Shown: one piece after another, positions 40,213-61,701 of the stretch
How positions within the stretch are numbered: the first letter of the stretch is position 1
Layout of the letters: each line of letters opens with the position of its first letter
NCBI RefSeq assembly: GCF_021049305.1
Contig: NZ_CP088081.1
Coordinates: 1,240,001-1,304,000, forward strand
DNA from: Ideonella dechloratans
Lineage (GTDB): Bacteria; Pseudomonadota; Gammaproteobacteria; Burkholderiales; Burkholderiaceae_C
Direction of reading: 5' to 3'
DNA length: 64,000 bases
Program-made: the position numbers and the translations under genes
The notes under the pieces: model-generated
What the model saw: only the letters and a program-made list of their open reading frames with translations
Told to the model about the DNA's origin: nothing
The model's database searches: none

Positions 40213-40446
40213 TCATCGTCCATCGCCCCGATCGTCGGGCGGCGCCGGCGGGTCGGTGTCGTCCCGGTAATGCTTCCAGCGGTCCACCGCCTGATGCATC
40301 ACCTTCATCTGTCTCAGAAAGCGCGGGCAGGGGTCGCAGATGGTGAGGTGCAGGCGCAGCTTCATGCGCTCGGCCAGGGTCAGGGGCCGGTCCTCGCTCT
40401 GCAGGATGAGGGCGGTGGCCTGTCGGCAGGAAATCTGGAACAGCAT
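40213..40446 (-). CDS. Small zinc-finger (ZAS) anti-sigma factor candidate
   Basis: A 77-residue soluble protein. It contains Cys7 and a HxxxCxxC motif (His33, Cys37, Cys40), the zinc-anti-sigma (zf-HC2) pattern. The C-terminal tail is charged and low-complexity, and there is no membrane helix. It lies 20 bases after the ECF sigma gene on the same strand. This suggests it binds and holds that sigma factor, releasing it on oxidation or metal binding of the Cys/His cluster. The family call rests on spacing and context. Confidence 0.75.
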   Translation of the reverse strand: MLFQISCRQATALILQSEDRPLTLAERMKLRLHLTICDPCPRFLRQMKVMHQAVDRWKHYRDDTDPPAPPDDRGDGR

Positions 40447-40466
40447 GGCAGAGGGGCTTCAGGGGA

Positions 40467-41039
40467 TCAGGCCGTCGCAGCGGTGGTGCTGCCGAACCAG
40501 TTGGCCTGCAGGCAGTCGCGCAGGCGCAGGCGGGCGCGGTGCAGCAGCACCCAGAGGTTGGCGCTGGTGATGGCCAGTTCCTGGCAGATCTCGTCGGTCT
40601 CCAGTTCCAGCCAGATGCGCATCATGAACACCCGGCCCTGCACCGGCGGCAAGTGGTCCATGCAGGCATCGAGCACCTGCAGGAACTGCTGCTGGCCCAG
40701 CAGGGCCTCGGGATGGGCATGCCACTCCACCGGGGTCTCGCGCCAATGGCCGGTGTCGTCGAACAGCAGCGGGTCCAGGTCCTCGGCGTCGTCGGCCTGC
40801 AGCACCGTGGCCTCGCGCGAATGACGGCGCAGCTGGTCCACCAGCTTGTGCTTGAGGATGCCCACCAACCAGGTCTTGAGCTGCGACTGGCCCGCAAAGG
40901 CCTGGGGCCGCTCCAGGGCGGCCAGCAGCGTGTCCGACACGGCATCCTCGGCCCAGGCTTCGTTGCGCAGCTGGGTGCGGGCATAGCGCATCAGTTGCGG
41001 GCGCAGCGCCTCGACGGCGCGCTGGAAATCGTCGGCCAT
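40467..41039 (-). CDS. ECF-family RNA polymerase sigma factor
   Basis: A 190-residue protein with start MADDFQRAVEAL. Region 2 includes LRPQLMRYARTQLRNEAWAE, DAVSDTLLAAL and LKTWLVGILKHKLVDQLRR. Region 4 includes PPVQGRVFMMRIWLELETDE and ICQELAITSANLWVLLHRAR. It is followed by a ZAS-type anti-sigma candidate and is divergent from the bufferin-type operon with about 120 bases between starts. It is therefore the likely activator of that operon. In Caulobacter the comparable operon is controlled by the ECF sigma SigF. Confidence 0.9.
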   Translation of the reverse strand: MADDFQRAVEALRPQLMRYARTQLRNEAWAEDAVSDTLLAALERPQAFAGQSQLKTWLVGILKHKLVDQLRRHSREATVLQADDAEDLDPLLFDDTGHWRETPVEWHAHPEALLGQQQFLQVLDACMDHLPPVQGRVFMMRIWLELETDEICQELAITSANLWVLLHRARLRLRDCLQANWFGSTTAATA

Positions 41040-41068
41040 GCGCGAAACAGGAGTCACAACACACCCAG

Positions 41069-41096
41069 TGTAAGGAATCGGGGATCTGCCGCGACC
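41069..41096 (+). promoter_or_regulatory. Candidate ECF-type promoter of the buf operon
   Basis: TGTAAGG at 41069-41075 and CGACC at 41092-41096 are separated by 16 bases, in the position and spacing of ECF promoters of the GTAAC-N16-CGA type. A start of transcription near 41103 would leave a leader of about 55 bases before the bufA start. The match is read by eye. Confidence 0.4.
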
Positions 41097-41159
41097 ACCG
41101 GATGAACGGCGGCGCAAGGGGCGCGGCCTTCGCAACCTTTCTCACTCCTGGAGCTTTCC

Positions 41160-41444
41160 ATGTCTTCGAACCATCTGCTCGTGTCTTCCGCCCTGACTGC
41201 CGTGCTGGCCATGGGCCTGGGCGCTTCCGCCCACGCCGAAACGGGGGCCAAGGAAAAGTGCTTCGGCATCGCCAAGGCGGGGGCGAACGACTGCGCCAAC
41301 CTCTCGGGATCCCACTCCTGCGCCGGCCTGGCAACGGTGGACAAGGGCGCCGACGAGTGGAACTACGTGGCCAAGGGCAGCTGCCACGCCAAGGGCGGCC
41401 GCACGCTGGACGAGGTCAAGGCGGGTGCCAGGGGCGGCAAGTGA
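41160..41444 (+). CDS. bufA: Bufferin-type copper-binding peptide precursor (DUF2282, BufA1-like)
   Basis: A 94-residue precursor. A Sec signal peptide (residues 1-26, cleavage at SAHA-ET) is followed by a small core with exactly four cysteines at 34, 45, 54 and 75. They occur in EKCFGIAKAGANDCA, SHSCAG and VAKGSCHAKGG. DUF2282 proteins of this form are exported, post-translationally modified peptides (bufferins) that bind copper. Some of the cysteines are converted to thiooxazoles by the adjacent MNIO enzyme. GGAG at 41150-41153 is a good ribosome-binding site. The stop overlaps the bufB start as GTGA. Confidence 0.93.
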   Translation: MSSNHLLVSSALTAVLAMGLGASAHAETGAKEKCFGIAKAGANDCANLSGSHSCAGLATVDKGADEWNYVAKGSCHAKGGRTLDEVKAGARGGK

Positions 41445-42328
41445 GGGCAACCGTGGCCAGCCCCTCCATCGGCATCGGCTGGAGGGCCCCGCATGCGCGG
41501 GATCTGCTGCAGCGCCGGCCGGCGCTGGGCTTCATCGAAGTCCACAGCGAGAACTTCTTCGCCCTCGGCGGGGAAGCCCGCGCCGCGCTGCGCGCGGCGG
41601 CCGAGCACCACCCGCTGAGCCTGCACGGCGTCGGCCTCGGGCTGGGCTCGGCCAGCGGGTTGGACCCTTGGCACCTGGACCGCCTGGCCGAACTCGTCGC
41701 CGATTTCCGGCCGCGCCATGTGTCCGATCATGCCGCCTTCACCCATGGCCCCGGCACGGACGCGGGCTGGGCCCATGCCGGGGACCTGCTGCCCATCGGC
41801 CTCAACCCCGCCTCGCTGGCCCTGATGGCCCGGCATGTGGACCAGGTCCAGCAGCGGCTGGGGCGGGTGCTGGCGGTGGAGAACATCAGCGCCTGCCTCT
41901 GGCGTGACGACGACGAGATCGCCGAGCCGGCCTTCTTCAACGCCCTGACCCGCATGACAGGCTGCCGCCTGCTGCTGGACCTGAACAACCTGGTGGTCAA
42001 TGCCCTGAACCGAGGTGCGGCCGACCCGGTGGCCCAGGCCTGCGCCTGGGTGGATGCGATCGATGCGCACAGCGTCGACGAGATCCACCTGGCCGGACAC
42101 GACGCCAGCGGGCCGCTGGTGGTGGACGACCACGGCAGCGCGGTGAGCGAGTCGGTTTGGGCCGTGTACCGCCATGCCCTGCATCGCCTGGGCCCGGTGC
42201 CCACACTGATCGAGTGGGACACCGCCCTGCCCGACTTCGACACCCTGCTGCAGGAGGCGGACCGCGTGGCCACCTGCCGGCCCCAGCCCTGGAGTTCGCC
42301 ATGGACGCCTCTGCCCCAAGCTGCCTGA
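41441..42328 (+). CDS. bufB: MNIO-family (DUF692) bufferin maturase
   Basis: A 295-residue TIM-barrel oxidase. The start is GTG at 41441, overlapping the bufA stop and placed 6 bases after AGGGG. Metal-ligand candidates are FIEVHSEN (Glu33, Glu37), SLHGVG (His62), VSDH (Asp96, His97), VEN (Glu147), LDLNN (Asp180, Asn182), EIHLAGH (His216, His220) and IEWD (Glu258). MNIO enzymes use two or three iron atoms and oxygen to modify cysteines of RiPP precursors. It acts in the cytoplasm on the unprocessed peptide before export. Confidence 0.94.
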   Translation: MRATVASPSIGIGWRAPHARDLLQRRPALGFIEVHSENFFALGGEARAALRAAAEHHPLSLHGVGLGLGSASGLDPWHLDRLAELVADFRPRHVSDHAAFTHGPGTDAGWAHAGDLLPIGLNPASLALMARHVDQVQQRLGRVLAVENISACLWRDDDEIAEPAFFNALTRMTGCRLLLDLNNLVVNALNRGAADPVAQACAWVDAIDAHSVDEIHLAGHDASGPLVVDDHGSAVSESVWAVYRHALHRLGPVPTLIEWDTALPDFDTLLQEADRVATCRPQPWSSPWTPLPQAA

Positions 42329-43131
42329 ACCCGGCGGCACTCACCCCCCAGGCCCTGCGCCTGGAGCAGGAACGCCAGGCGCAGCTGCTGGCGGCCATCC
42401 GGGCCGGTCACGGCCCGTTGCCTGCGGGCTGGGCTGGCCACCGCGTCGGGCTGCTGGCCCACCAGCGCCACGCACGGGCCACCGCACGGCGGGCGCTGGC
42501 GGGGGCCTACCCGGTGCTGGCAGCCTGGCTGGGCGAGGTCGAGTTCGAGGCCCTGGCCTGGCAGCATTGGTGCCAGACACCGCCCCGTCGGGGCGATCTG
42601 GCCCGCTGGGGCGCCGCCTTGCCCGAGGCCCTGGCCTCGGAGGGACCGGGGACCGGCACCGAGCACGCGAGCCTGGCGGCACTGGAGTGGGCCGTGCACG
42701 TGGCTGCCCGCGCGGCGGACCCCGTGCCCGGCCTGCCTCAGGGCCTGGACGCGTTGCAGACCACACCGCCCGAGGCGCTGTGGCTCTTGCCCCAGCCCGG
42801 TCTGGCGCTGCTGCCCTGCAGTCCGCAGGTGTGGGCGCGTTGGTGCGCGGCGCAGCCAATGCCGCCGCCCGGGTCGGAAGATCCGCCGATGCCCTGCGAG
42901 TGGGCTTTGGTTCGGCGGGTGGGTTGGCAGGTGGCGGTGCGGGCTCTGCCCGCCGACCAGGCCCGTTTCACGCACCGCTTGCTGGCGGGCGACAACCTGG
43001 GAGAAGCCTTGACCCGGGCCGCGCCCGGGAACTTTCAGGACTGGCTGCGCGATGCGCTGGCCGAGGGCTGGTGGCGCGCGGTCAGCACCGCGGCGCCGGG
43101 CAGCCTGCATGACGAGGATGAAGAACCATGA
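42301..43131 (+). CDS. bufC: DUF2063 partner protein (BufC-like)
   Basis: A 276-residue protein. The N-terminal half has the DUF2063 pattern of short helices (LEQERQAQLLAAIRAG, RALAGAYPVLAAWLGEVEFE). The C-terminal half ends with a RRE-like region (LPADQARFTHRLLAGDNLGE and EALTRAAPGNFQDWL). Such proteins form a complex with the MNIO enzyme and probably hold the precursor peptide. It overlaps bufB by 28 bases and bufD by four. Confidence 0.9.
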   Translation: MDASAPSCLNPAALTPQALRLEQERQAQLLAAIRAGHGPLPAGWAGHRVGLLAHQRHARATARRALAGAYPVLAAWLGEVEFEALAWQHWCQTPPRRGDLARWGAALPEALASEGPGTGTEHASLAALEWAVHVAARAADPVPGLPQGLDALQTTPPEALWLLPQPGLALLPCSPQVWARWCAAQPMPPPGSEDPPMPCEWALVRRVGWQVAVRALPADQARFTHRLLAGDNLGEALTRAAPGNFQDWLRDALAEGWWRAVSTAAPGSLHDEDEEP

Positions 43132-43589
43132 ACTTGTCGATGATTGAACGTGGCCAGGCCCTGTGGCGGCCGGTGGAGGCCACGCTGCGGGCGCTGCAGG
43201 CCCCGGCCCAACTGGCTGCCCGGCTGTATGTGGGCTCGGTGTTTTTCCGCTCCGGGCTGACCAAGCTGCGCGACTGGGACATCACGCTGGCGCTGTTCCA
43301 GGACGAATACCACGTGCCCCTGTTGCCGCCCGATGTGGCCGCCGTGGCCGGCACCACTGGGGAACTGGTGCTGCCGGTGCTGTTGGTGATGGGCCTGGCC
43401 GGGCGCTTTGCGGCGGCCGGCCTGAGCGTGGTGAACGTGGTGGCCGCCATCAGCCTGACGGACATCGCCGCGGCGGCCCTGACCCAGCACCAGTTCTGGG
43501 GCAGCCTGTTGCTGGCGCTGGTGCTGTGGGGGTCGGGGGCCTGGTCGGCAGACGCCTGGCTGCGCCGCCGCCTCAGTCCTTCGGCGTGA
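43128..43589 (+). CDS. bufD: DoxX-family membrane protein (BufD/HvfX-like)
   Basis: A 153-residue protein with four predicted membrane helices and the DoxX motif FFRSGLTKLRDWD near residue 40. DoxX-like proteins close many bufferin and related copper-RiPP operons. A role in modification, redox or export at the inner membrane is supposed but unproven. The start overlaps bufC as ATGA. The 3' end overlaps the convergent tolA by 17 bases. Confidence 0.88.
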   Translation: MNLSMIERGQALWRPVEATLRALQAPAQLAARLYVGSVFFRSGLTKLRDWDITLALFQDEYHVPLLPPDVAAVAGTTGELVLPVLLVMGLAGRFAAAGLSVVNVVAAISLTDIAAAALTQHQFWGSLLLALVLWGSGAWSADAWLRRRLSPSA

Positions 43590-44676
43590 AGCCGATCTCC
43601 ATCGTCGGCGGAATGGTGCCGTCCACATCGCGCGGCAGCTTGCCGGTGCGGTCGATGGCGCGCAGCACCGTTTCGTCCCAGTCGCGGTTGCCGCTGGAAT
43701 GGGTCAGGCGCCGGCCGATGATCGTGCCGTCCGGCGCGCAGCGCACCTCCACCACTGCGCGCGGGTTGCCGTCGATGCTGTCGAGTGAAACGATTTTGGG
43801 CCTGACGTAGGCCACGATGCGGCCCGCATAGTTGGCCGAAGGGCCGGACGTGCGCTGGGCCGTGCCGGTGCTGCCTTGGGCGCCGTTGGCGCCGGCCACG
43901 CCGGTGGGGCTGCCGAGCTGGGCGGCCATGCGGCGCAGCTGATCCTGGCGGGCGGCCTCGGCCAGCTTGGCCTGGCGCGCCTTGTCGGCCTTCTCCTTAG
44001 CGGCCTGCTCTTTGGCGGCCTGCTCCTTCGCGGCCTGCTCCTTGGCTGCCTTGTCTTTCGCGGCCTTGTCGGCCTTCTCCTTGGCCGCCTGCGCCTCCCG
44101 GGCGGCCTTGTCCTTGGCAGCCTTCTCCTCGGCGGCCTTGGCCTGGGCGGCCTTCTCCTTCTCCCGGGCGTCGCGCTCGGCCTGCTGGCGCTTTTCCCAG
44201 GCACGTTGGTCGCGTTCGCGGGCCAGCTCGGCCTCACGTTCTGCCTGCGCCTTCTCGGCGGCGGCCTTCTCCGCCGCCTTCTCGGCAGCCTTTTCGGCGG
44301 CAGCCTGTGCGGCCCGGGCCGCCTTCTGCTGGGCGGCCTGCTGTGCGGCCTGTTGGGCTGCAGCCTGCTCGGCAGCGGCCTGGGCCTGCTGCTGTGCCTG
44401 CTCCTGGGCCGCGGTGTCCTGGGGCGGCGTGGGCTGGGGCTGCGGCTGGCCATCGGCCTGACCCAGCGGGGCGGCCGCGATCTGCGGCACGGCCGACCAC
44501 AGTTCCGCGCTCACCCCTTCCGGGTCGGCGGTGTGCCATTGCACGCCCAGCGTCAGGGCCAGCACCAGCAGGGCATGGGCCAGCAGGGACATGACCCAGC
44601 CCGTGCGCGGGCTGTCCGCGGTGGGCGGGTGCAGGGCCTCGCGCGGCGTGGCCAGGGGCTGCAGCGGGCTGCTCAC
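43573..44676 (-). CDS. tolA: TolA, cell-envelope integrity protein
   Basis: A 367-residue protein. It has a short cytoplasmic N-terminus, a membrane helix (about 27-47), a very long Ala/Lys/Glu/Gln-rich helical domain (about 85-250) and a C-terminal TonB/TolA domain with RIVAYVRPKI and VEVRCAPDGTI. TolA spans the periplasm and couples TolQR proton-motive energy to the TolB-Pal complex. The tolB and pal genes do not follow. Instead the gene converges on the buf operon. Confidence 0.94.
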   Translation of the reverse strand: MSSPLQPLATPREALHPPTADSPRTGWVMSLLAHALLVLALTLGVQWHTADPEGVSAELWSAVPQIAAAPLGQADGQPQPQPTPPQDTAAQEQAQQQAQAAAEQAAAQQAAQQAAQQKAARAAQAAAEKAAEKAAEKAAAEKAQAEREAELARERDQRAWEKRQQAERDAREKEKAAQAKAAEEKAAKDKAAREAQAAKEKADKAAKDKAAKEQAAKEQAAKEQAAKEKADKARQAKLAEAARQDQLRRMAAQLGSPTGVAGANGAQGSTGTAQRTSGPSANYAGRIVAYVRPKIVSLDSIDGNPRAVVEVRCAPDGTIIGRRLTHSSGNRDWDETVLRAIDRTGKLPRDVDGTIPPTMEIGFTPKD

Positions 44677-44680
44677 GGCA

Positions 44681-45109
44681 TCAGCCTCCCTGGCGGACCG
44701 ACAGCCCCACGTGTTGCACGCCGCGGCGCTGCAAGGTGTCCATCACCTTCACCACGCTCTCGTAGCGCACCTGCTTGTCGGCCGAGATGATGACCGGCAC
44801 GTTGTCGCTGCCCGCCTGGGCGCCCAGCACCTGGTCGGCCAGGGCGTTCAGGGTGGTGGTCTGGGCCTCGCCCTTGTCGATCTTGAACTGCAGCTTGTCG
44901 TCGCTCTGCACGATGATCTCGACCACGCTCTGCGGGCGGGCCTTGGCCTTGCCCACGCTGGGCAGGTCCACCACGCCGGTGGTGATCATCGGGGCGCTGA
45001 CCATGAAGATGATGAGCAGCACCAGCATCACGTCGATGAACGGGACCATGTTGATCTCGTTCATCGAACGGCGCCGGCGGCCACCGCCGCGGGGAGCGAC
45101 TCCAGGCAT
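44681..45109 (-). CDS. tolR: TolR, ExbD/TolR-family protein
   Basis: A 142-residue protein with one membrane helix containing the proton-path Asp in NMVPFIDVMLVLLIIFMV (about residue 24). A periplasmic dimerisation domain completes it. The ATG at 45109 has AGGAG seven bases upstream. It is part of the TolQRA energy-transducing complex. Confidence 0.96.
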   Translation of the reverse strand: MPGVAPRGGGRRRRSMNEINMVPFIDVMLVLLIIFMVSAPMITTGVVDLPSVGKAKARPQSVVEIIVQSDDKLQFKIDKGEAQTTTLNALADQVLGAQAGSDNVPVIISADKQVRYESVVKVMDTLQRRGVQHVGLSVRQGG

Positions 45110-45124
45110 CTCGAGGCTCCTCGC

Positions 45125-45810
45125 TCAGTGGGTCGTCGCGCCACCGGCGCTGCCGACATTGCGCTGCAGGATGTTGGAGAACTCCTCGACGAAGCTCTCG
45201 AGCTGGATGGCGATGCGGTCGATGGTGCGGGCGAAGTGGTTGTAGGCCAGCACGGCGGGAATGGCCGCGAACAGGCCGATGGCCGTGGCCACCAGCGCCT
45301 CGGCAATGCCGGGGGCCACGGTGGACAGGGTGACCTGCTGCAGGTTGGACAGGCCGACGAAGGCGTGCATGATCCCCCACACCGTGCCGAACAGGCCCAC
45401 ATAGGGGCTGATGGAGCCCACCGAGGCCAGGAAGCCGATGCTGCCTTCCAGCGCGTCGAGCTCGCGCTGCAGGGTGGCCTTCATGGCACGGCGGGCGCCG
45501 TCGAGCTGGCTGCCGGCGTCGAGCTGGCGTTCGCGCAGCTTCATGAACTCGCGCATGCCGCTGGCGAACAGCCGCTCCATCGGACCGGTGTCGGGCTTGT
45601 TGCTGGCGGCGCGGTAGAGCTCGTTGAGGTTGCGGCCGGACCAGAACTCCTGCTCGAAGCTGCCGTCGCGCTCGCGGGTGCGGGACAAGCCCACCACCTT
45701 CGAGAAGATGACGCTCCAGCTGGCCAGCGAGATGAGCAGCAGCGCGGTGACCACCAACTGCACGATCAGGCTGGCGTGCATCAGCAGGGAGACGATGGAG
45801 AGGTCCTGGT

Positions 45811-45814
<4 letters not shown>
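45125..45814 (-). CDS. tolQ: TolQ, MotA/TolQ/ExbB proton channel protein
   Basis: A 229-residue protein with three membrane helices (about 13-40, 130-155, 168-195). The MotA/ExbB signature is FLASVGSISPYVGLFGTVWG followed by AEALVATAIGLFAAIPAV. The start overlaps the ybgC stop as ATGA. Confidence 0.97.
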
Positions 45815-46227
<413 letters not shown>

Positions 46228-61529: not shown

Positions 61530-61620
61530 GTGCGGGTTGCCCAGGCGAACGGCAGAGTCGATGCGACCACGGCTCAGGCTGAGCCTCGGGCCGTGGTGCA
61601 CTTCACGCTTCCCGGTGGTG
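61530..61620 (-). promoter_or_regulatory. Candidate ZTP (pfl) riboswitch in the glyA leader
   Basis: Read on the minus strand, the leader holds CGGGAAGCGTGAAG (about 61613-61600), then a long G+C hairpin (CCACGGC / GCCGTGG) and then CGCCTGGGCA (61547-61538). The last is the most conserved element of ZTP riboswitches, and GCGTG is their 5' core. CGGG and CCCG can close the P1 stem. A further hairpin (GTCGGG / CCCGAC, 61486-61514) ends 8 bases before the glyA ribosome-binding site and could be the expression platform. ZTP signals low folate carriers, and glyA is a known target. Confidence 0.6.
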
Positions 61621-61701
61621 ATCCACCTCGCCGGTGACGGCGGGGCGTGTCGCCCGCTGCCACCCTCTATCGCCAGTCGCGTGAAGGTTGCTAGTGTACC
61701 G

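Follow-up and report, generated by a model that had tools for sequence, protein, structure and literature searches.

A Buf1 bufferin operon with its own extracytoplasmic function sigma factor and a predicted zinc-finger anti-sigma protein in Ideonella dechloratans

A 64,000-nucleotide stretch of the Ideonella dechloratans genome (contig NZ_CP088081.1, positions 1,240,001 to 1,304,000; hereafter, the window) contains a Buf1 bufferin operon that has its own extracytoplasmic function (ECF) sigma factor and a small, predicted zinc-finger anti-sigma protein (ZAS). This is a real and well-conserved system. Computation establishes its gene content, its conservation, a promoter motif with two genomic sites, and a match between promoter and anti-sigma type: at bufferin operons, the promoter class follows the anti-sigma class. 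With good confidence, we propose that the locus represents, in Burkholderiales, the sigmaE-MseR switch of Neisseria meningitidis and the RpoE2-HrsE switch of Haemophilus influenzae, placed here over true bufferins, and that its sigma factor would be freed by thiol-zinc disturbance and would drive two operons, the one in the window and an unlinked one. The six genes at the window locus form two divergent units, with the Buf1 operon reading rightwards and the genes for the sigma factor and ZAS reading leftwards. They are listed here with the predicted promoter, in window coordinates; MNIO stands for multinuclear non-heme iron-dependent oxidase.

40213..40446, minus strand: ZAS anti-sigma protein of the MseR/HrsE type, 77 aa; zf-HC2 25.4 bits (cut-off 22.2)
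40467..41039, minus strand: ECF sigma factor, 190 aa; Sigma70_r2 51.8 bits (cut-off 24), r4_2 46 bits (cut-off 25.7)
41068..41095, plus strand: predicted ECF promoter towards bufA; -35 GTGTAAGGA (41068-41076), -10 CGAC (41092-41095)
41160..41444, plus strand: bufA, Buf1 (DUF2282) precursor, 94 aa; PF10048 73 bits (cut-off 22.4)
41441..42328, plus strand: bufB, MNIO maturase; PF05114 287.7 bits (cut-off 25)
42301..43131, plus strand: bufC, DUF2063 partner protein; PF09836 51.1 bits (cut-off 27.2)
43128..43589, plus strand: DoxX-like membrane protein; PF07681 64.9 bits (cut-off 23.6)

The original prediction, made from the sequence alone, described four overlapping genes for a DUF2282 precursor, an MNIO, a DUF2063 protein and a DoxX-like protein. 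Profile searches agree, matching all four proteins above their Pfam cut-offs, and the overlaps measure 4 nt for bufA and bufB (with the GTG at 41441 as the bufB start), 28 nt for bufB and bufC, and 4 nt for bufC and the DoxX gene. The gene order is that of the Buf1 bufferin operon. The precursor, a member of PF10048, also has the predicted secretion signal and four cysteines (positions 34, 45, 54 and 75); the signal was read by eye as Sec-type, and the N-terminal part ends in AHA, as for signal peptidase. An alternative bufB start at GTG 41453 is possible. The best NCBIfam family for bufB is MNIO_BufB at 283.9 bits (next 181.2), below that family's cut-off of 310, which governs naming and is no biochemical definition, and the protein aligns with the solved DUF692 protein 3bww (E 2e-33). 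A single-sequence search of the PDB with the DUF2063 protein, bufC, matched no chain. DUF2282 has one match in the whole genome.

Also predicted were an ECF sigma factor divergent from the operon and a soluble zinc-finger anti-sigma protein of 77 residues, distinct from the membrane protein NrsF; the searches bear out each of these points. In addition to its Pfam domains, the sigma factor matches TIGR02943 (228.1 bits, cut-off 162.2) and PRK12520 (278.2 bits, cut-off 255), and it is 96% identical to its counterpart in Ideonella oryzae (locus L210) and 93% identical to that in Ideonella sp. B508-1. The 77-residue protein scores 70.1 bits, above the cut-off of 50, for the NCBIfam family NF052368 (antisigmaE), and its putative ligands have the arrangement Cys7-x25-His33-x3-Cys37-x2-Cys40, which contains the predicted Cys7 and HxxxCxxC. 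Because its peak 19-residue hydropathy is only 0.36, we conclude that it has no membrane helix. We searched the genome for NrsF, obtained no PF06532 match and rejected control by NrsF in this genome. We also rejected an identity with RsrA, of the mycothiol system (TIGR03988 16.7 bits, cut-off 62.5). No relevant entry came up when PDB sequences were searched with the ZAS profile.

To describe conservation, we use the best 80 of 526 sigma relatives, some of which share a genome. The ZAS gene is directly downstream of the sigma gene in all 80, and also in 10 of the 10 best order-level ZAS loci inspected. All four ligands are kept in the 80 relatives, with the exact spacing in 79 and one extra residue in the other (L217). 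The proteins are 63-81 aa long, and none contains a hydrophobic membrane-like stretch.

We also conducted a census of 120 genomes of the family, which contain 81 DUF2282 loci, and defined linkage as an anti-sigma match within 4.5 kb. ZAS is linked to 39 of these loci and is on the opposite strand in all 39, which argues that the association of Buf1 with ZAS does not arise by chance. Another 11 loci are linked to NrsF, and 31 are near neither. At the level of genomes, 49 of the 55 with ZAS have DUF2282 (Fisher 7e-9).

The 120 bp between the divergent units contain the motif AGTGTAAGGA-N15-CGAC, which points to bufA. This motif was first spotted in relatives and counted afterwards, using a strict pattern, GTGTAAGGA-N14/15-CGAC, and a looser one, GTAAG-N15..18-CGAC, with the reversed patterns as controls. 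Among the 80 relatives, the looser motif occurs in the bufA direction, at most 260 nt from the sigma start, at 57 of the 58 loci where bufA is adjacent, at none of the 3 where bufA is more than 2 kb away and at 3 of the 19 without bufA. The corresponding counts in the sigma direction are 0/58, 0/3 and 1/19, and the reversed control matches none of the 80. Given 57 of 58 towards an adjacent bufA and 0 of 58 towards sigma, the motif belongs with bufA and not with the sigma gene. Conserved bases extend beyond the pattern, namely C (0.82), A (0.96), G (0.98) and T (1.00) before GTAAG, and G (0.89) and A (0.96) after it. We considered autoregulation of sigma from this motif and rejected it: no GTAAG site in the sigma direction exists at the window locus (L002), nor at any relative with an adjacent bufA.

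The strict motif has two sites in the 4.54 Mb genome, with 0 for the reversed control. One is the window site (C1 1281068), and the other (L033, C1 ~1715034) precedes an unlinked BufA2 (Buf2-class) operon, starting 164 nt before the BufA2 match. In this operon, the BufA2 precursor scores 100.1 bits (cut-off 60) and the MNIO passes the BufB cut-off (377.8 vs 310). The BufA2 arrangement recurs in the family: 24 genomes have a BufA2 match over the cut-off, counted as one locus each (further copies in G006 and G054 are outside the count), and in 20 of them the looser motif lies on the correct strand, ~111-193 nt ahead of the profile match, while the reversed control yields 0. As for the strict motif, our own reading of its 39 sites in the 120 genomes places 20 ahead of Buf1 (one, in G050, at a distance of ~0.8 kb), 3 ahead of BufA2 and 8 before redox-repair or related genes. 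The eight comprise MsrA (two), MsrB, a catalase-family protein, DUF1223 (two), thioredoxin and a spondin-domain protein; the MsrA and MsrB sites resemble the Neisseria and Haemophilus regulons, which, in the passages of the publications discussed below, hold MsrAB. In two genomes (L043, L055), the strict motif is followed after 25-32 nt by the gene for DUF1223, a CxxC-motif protein that may be a further regulon member.

The relationship between promoter class and anti-sigma class emerges when the 900 nt upstream of each DUF2282 locus are searched for the motif described above (here, ZAS-type) and for the SigF-type motif of Caulobacter, GTAACC-N15..17-CGAA. Of the 39 ZAS-linked Buf1 loci, 28 have the ZAS-type motif and none the SigF-type, whereas of the 11 NrsF-linked loci none has the ZAS-type and 9 have the SigF-type. 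The 31 unlinked loci divide into 18 with the ZAS-type, 1 with the SigF-type (G097, whose NrsF is on another contig) and 12 with neither. Reversed ZAS-type patterns match 3/39 ZAS-linked, 0/11 NrsF-linked and 0/31 unlinked loci, and reversed SigF-type patterns match none. When we fetched ten NrsF loci, each contained the SigF-type motif, which in seven was present on both strands; the ZAS-type was absent from all ten. It counts against the rule that two of the 11 NrsF-linked loci have neither motif. The sigma factors of the loci fetched on the two sides, 29 with ZAS (from a total of 55 genomes) and 10 with NrsF (from a total of 17), form separate groups with a mean identity between them of 21%.

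BufA2 promoters in the 24 genomes are ZAS-type in 20, SigF-type in 2 and neither in 2. One SigF-type case is G071, which has NrsF and in which no ZAS was found. The other, G027, has both switches (L027, L072): ZAS adjoins Buf1, NrsF adjoins BufA2, and each operon has the promoter type to match. In a tree of the BufA2-side MNIO that covers 23 of the 24 loci, the two SigF-type operons occupy two separate supported places among ZAS-type ones, and these two cases therefore weakly suggest two promoter switches to the SigF type. Widening the survey to 300 genomes of the order gave 37 with BufA2, of which 28 also match ZAS (E <= 0.001; Fisher 6e-5) and none reaches the cut-off for NrsF (Fisher 0.003). 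A locus was available for the motif scan in 29 of the 36 further BufA2 genomes: 16 have the looser motif, none has the SigF-type, and the reversed control matches once (L315). Since the SigF-type count is 0 of 29, the switch to this type was not seen again at the order level. We regard the chances as about even that, within one family, the bufferin regulon (Buf1 plus unlinked Buf2) moved between the unrelated NrsF (membrane) and ZAS (cytoplasmic zinc-thiol) switches, with the operon promoters changing to match. If this is true, some species would mount their copper-peptide response to a signal from the envelope, and close relatives would mount theirs to a thiol or metal signal in the cytosol.

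Comparisons with published systems draw on passages of the papers cited. The closest characterised case is the meningococcal sigmaE-MseR operon, NMB2140-NMB2145, which also encodes a DoxX protein as well as three others that were termed hypothetical at the time (PMC2893595). There, too, the ZAS, MseR (NMB2145), directly follows the ECF sigma factor and is linked to a DoxX cluster, and its residues Cys4/His30/Cys34/Cys37 have the same spacing as in I. dechloratans. Full inhibition by MseR needs Cys4, Cys34 and Cys37, and Cys-to-Ala changes release the targets (PMC2893595). The Neisseria sigmaE promoter, GTMAGBWTT-N12/13-CGTCTAAH (PMC2893595), has the same GTAAG-type -35 core and the same spacing, and differs mainly in its -10 element, CGTC instead of CGAC. 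However, the Neisseria genes form one autoregulated operon, while ours are divergent with no sigma-directed motif; the gonococcal cluster makes an EGKCG-type peptide, while ours encodes DUF2282; and MsrAB is a target in Neisseria, while the I. dechloratans MsrA and MsrB genes are without the motif and a BufA2 site is present.

In H. influenzae, RpoE2 and the 67-aa ZAS HrsE control a COG3767/COG3220/DUF2063/DoxX cluster, with hypochlorous acid (HOCl) shown as an inducer (PMC7907618). Similarities are the co-transcription of the ZAS and sigma genes there, the four-gene DoxX/DUF2063/COG3220 target cluster and the very limited autoregulation. Unlike in the window, the H. influenzae target cluster is away from the sigma gene and belongs to the EGKCG/oxazolin class, if the clusters of the two publications are, as appears, identical. 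Gonococcal gonophorin and H. influenzae oxazolin belong to this EGKCG class, a sister class of bufferins with closely related MNIOs (PMC13097082, PMC12452194). Caulobacter SigF-NrsF resembles our system in that one ECF sigma factor controls a pair of DUF692/DUF2063 operons, only one of which adjoins sigF (PMC3511200), but Caulobacter has NrsF, with six membrane segments, instead of ZAS, and the promoter GTAACC-N16-CGAA. In Cupriavidus metallidurans, gigPABT-rpoQ-rsqA (PMC10304878) combines the same four genes in an operon with a divergent ECF sigma/anti-sigma pair; in this case RsqA is predicted to be membrane-bound, gig is induced by copper with a signal judged periplasmic, and control by RpoQ is not proven. 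In passages of a 2025 MNIO survey, sigma and NrsF genes are reported in Buf1 but not Buf2 clusters, and zinc-finger anti-sigmas are unmentioned (PMC12452194).

The original prediction saw a new regulatory possibility in a cytoplasmic switch for bufferin production, and this claim holds in part. It included neither the promoter nor the unlinked BufA2 operon. Control of such a cluster by a soluble ZAS has precedents, because sigmaE-MseR and RpoE2-HrsE regulate equivalent four-gene clusters. However, those clusters make EGKCG-type peptides, and thus we found no published experiment on ZAS control of true Buf1 or Buf2 operons. Joint control of two operons is likewise already known, albeit with another anti-sigma, since Caulobacter SigF-NrsF does so. 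In the literature covered, mostly outside subscription journals, we found neither ZAS regulation of Buf1/Buf2 in Burkholderiales nor the promoter-class rule. Our computation adds the use of ZAS for true bufferins, a predicted target set of two operons, the absence of the motif in the sigma direction, and the rule on promoter class. They join two literatures, on the meningococcal and Haemophilus sigma-ZAS repair regulon and on copper-binding bufferins, and provide a testable rule, by which anti-sigma class predicts bufferin promoter class.

In the mechanism we propose, ZAS would bind zinc via Cys7, His33, Cys37 and Cys40 and would keep the ECF sigma factor inactive in the cytoplasm. The thiol-zinc site could be disturbed by oxidation (HOCl-type stress), or a thiophilic metal, for instance Cu(I), could displace its zinc. 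The freed sigma factor would then initiate transcription at GTGTAAGGA-N14/15-CGAC, the window Buf1 and unlinked BufA2 operons would be co-induced, and from both operons copper-chelating peptides with modified cysteines would reach the periplasm. The sigma and ZAS genes would be transcribed from a different promoter, and the motif would therefore give no positive feedback. We infer the zinc binding, sigma binding, promoter activity, signal and peptide modification in this scheme. The switch is probably sensitive to thiol oxidation or metal. The system as a whole suggests that bufferins may help to answer not only copper but also oxidative or thiol damage.

It is important to consider several observations that weigh against this mechanism or its parts. 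The loose pattern has 3 sites in the I. dechloratans genome and 8 for the reversed control, so only the strict pair is safe; on this count the third, looser match (L034, C1:3830859-3830885) is not above chance, and we rejected it as a target. We also rejected the genome's own MsrA and two MsrB genes, which have no motif upstream. In the 120 genomes, the 39 strict sites (in 27 genomes) compare with 24 for the reversed pattern, so that the placement of sites tells more than their number, and 8 of the 39 precede apparently unrelated genes. No motif was found within 900 nt at 11 of the 39 ZAS-linked Buf1 loci, the reversed control matches 3 of these 39, and 4 of the 24 BufA2 operons are without the looser motif. 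Four of the five BufA2 genomes with no detected ZAS nevertheless carry the ZAS-type motif, which means that ZAS escaped detection in them or that the motif is read by a different sigma factor. In the Neisseria work, His30 of MseR is dispensable, and neither peroxide nor diamide nor singlet oxygen elicited a sigmaE response (PMC2893595); for the latter reason, thiol oxidation is not a safe signal. Finally, in the published passages on these systems, we found no copper test of a ZAS-type system.

The strongest alternative concerns the signal: excess copper itself might be sensed, with Cu(I) taking the ZAS thiols in the cytoplasm and freeing sigma while bufferins buffer the periplasm. The thiols of a CxxC motif are plausible Cu(I) ligands. 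Moreover, bufferins are copper-linked (PMC12452194), and the C. metallidurans gig operon, which adjoins a sigma/anti-sigma pair, is induced by copper and gold (PMC10304878). However, the inducing signal there was judged periplasmic and its RsqA is predicted to be membrane-bound (PMC10304878), MsrAB repair genes are part of the characterised ZAS regulons of this type, and HOCl, H2O2 and paraquat all induce rpoE2 in H. influenzae (PMC7907618). We view copper sensing as a tentative possibility, of lower probability than the broader thiol-zinc switch.

It is unlikely that the GTGTAAGGA motif is the site of another regulator and that the sigma factor serves other genes. This idea would accommodate the four genomes in which the looser motif precedes BufA2 and ZAS was not detected, but the motif is similar in its two blocks and their spacing to the sigmaE promoter published for Neisseria, and the ten fetched NrsF loci, all with GTAACC-N15..17-CGAA and none with the ZAS-type motif, show the same split as Buf1. 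We consider it very improbable that ZAS is a zinc-finger protein with a different role and that sigma is controlled otherwise, as this is contradicted by the position of ZAS directly after sigma in 80/80 relatives and 10/10 best order-level loci, and by the above-cut-off match to a characterised anti-sigma family.

Three further observations concern neighbouring or incidental features. The rejected L034 match is upstream of a lipoprotein-like open reading frame, which is divergent from another ECF-like sigma reading frame (both by eye). Reading frames resembling TolA, TolR and TolQ (names given by eye) occupy positions 43573-45904 of the window on the minus strand, tail to tail with the DoxX gene and with a 17-nt frame overlap. 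Elsewhere in the window, positions 61532-61690 on the minus strand match the ZMP/ZTP riboswitch (Rfam RF01750) at 46.8 bits (gathering cut-off 39).

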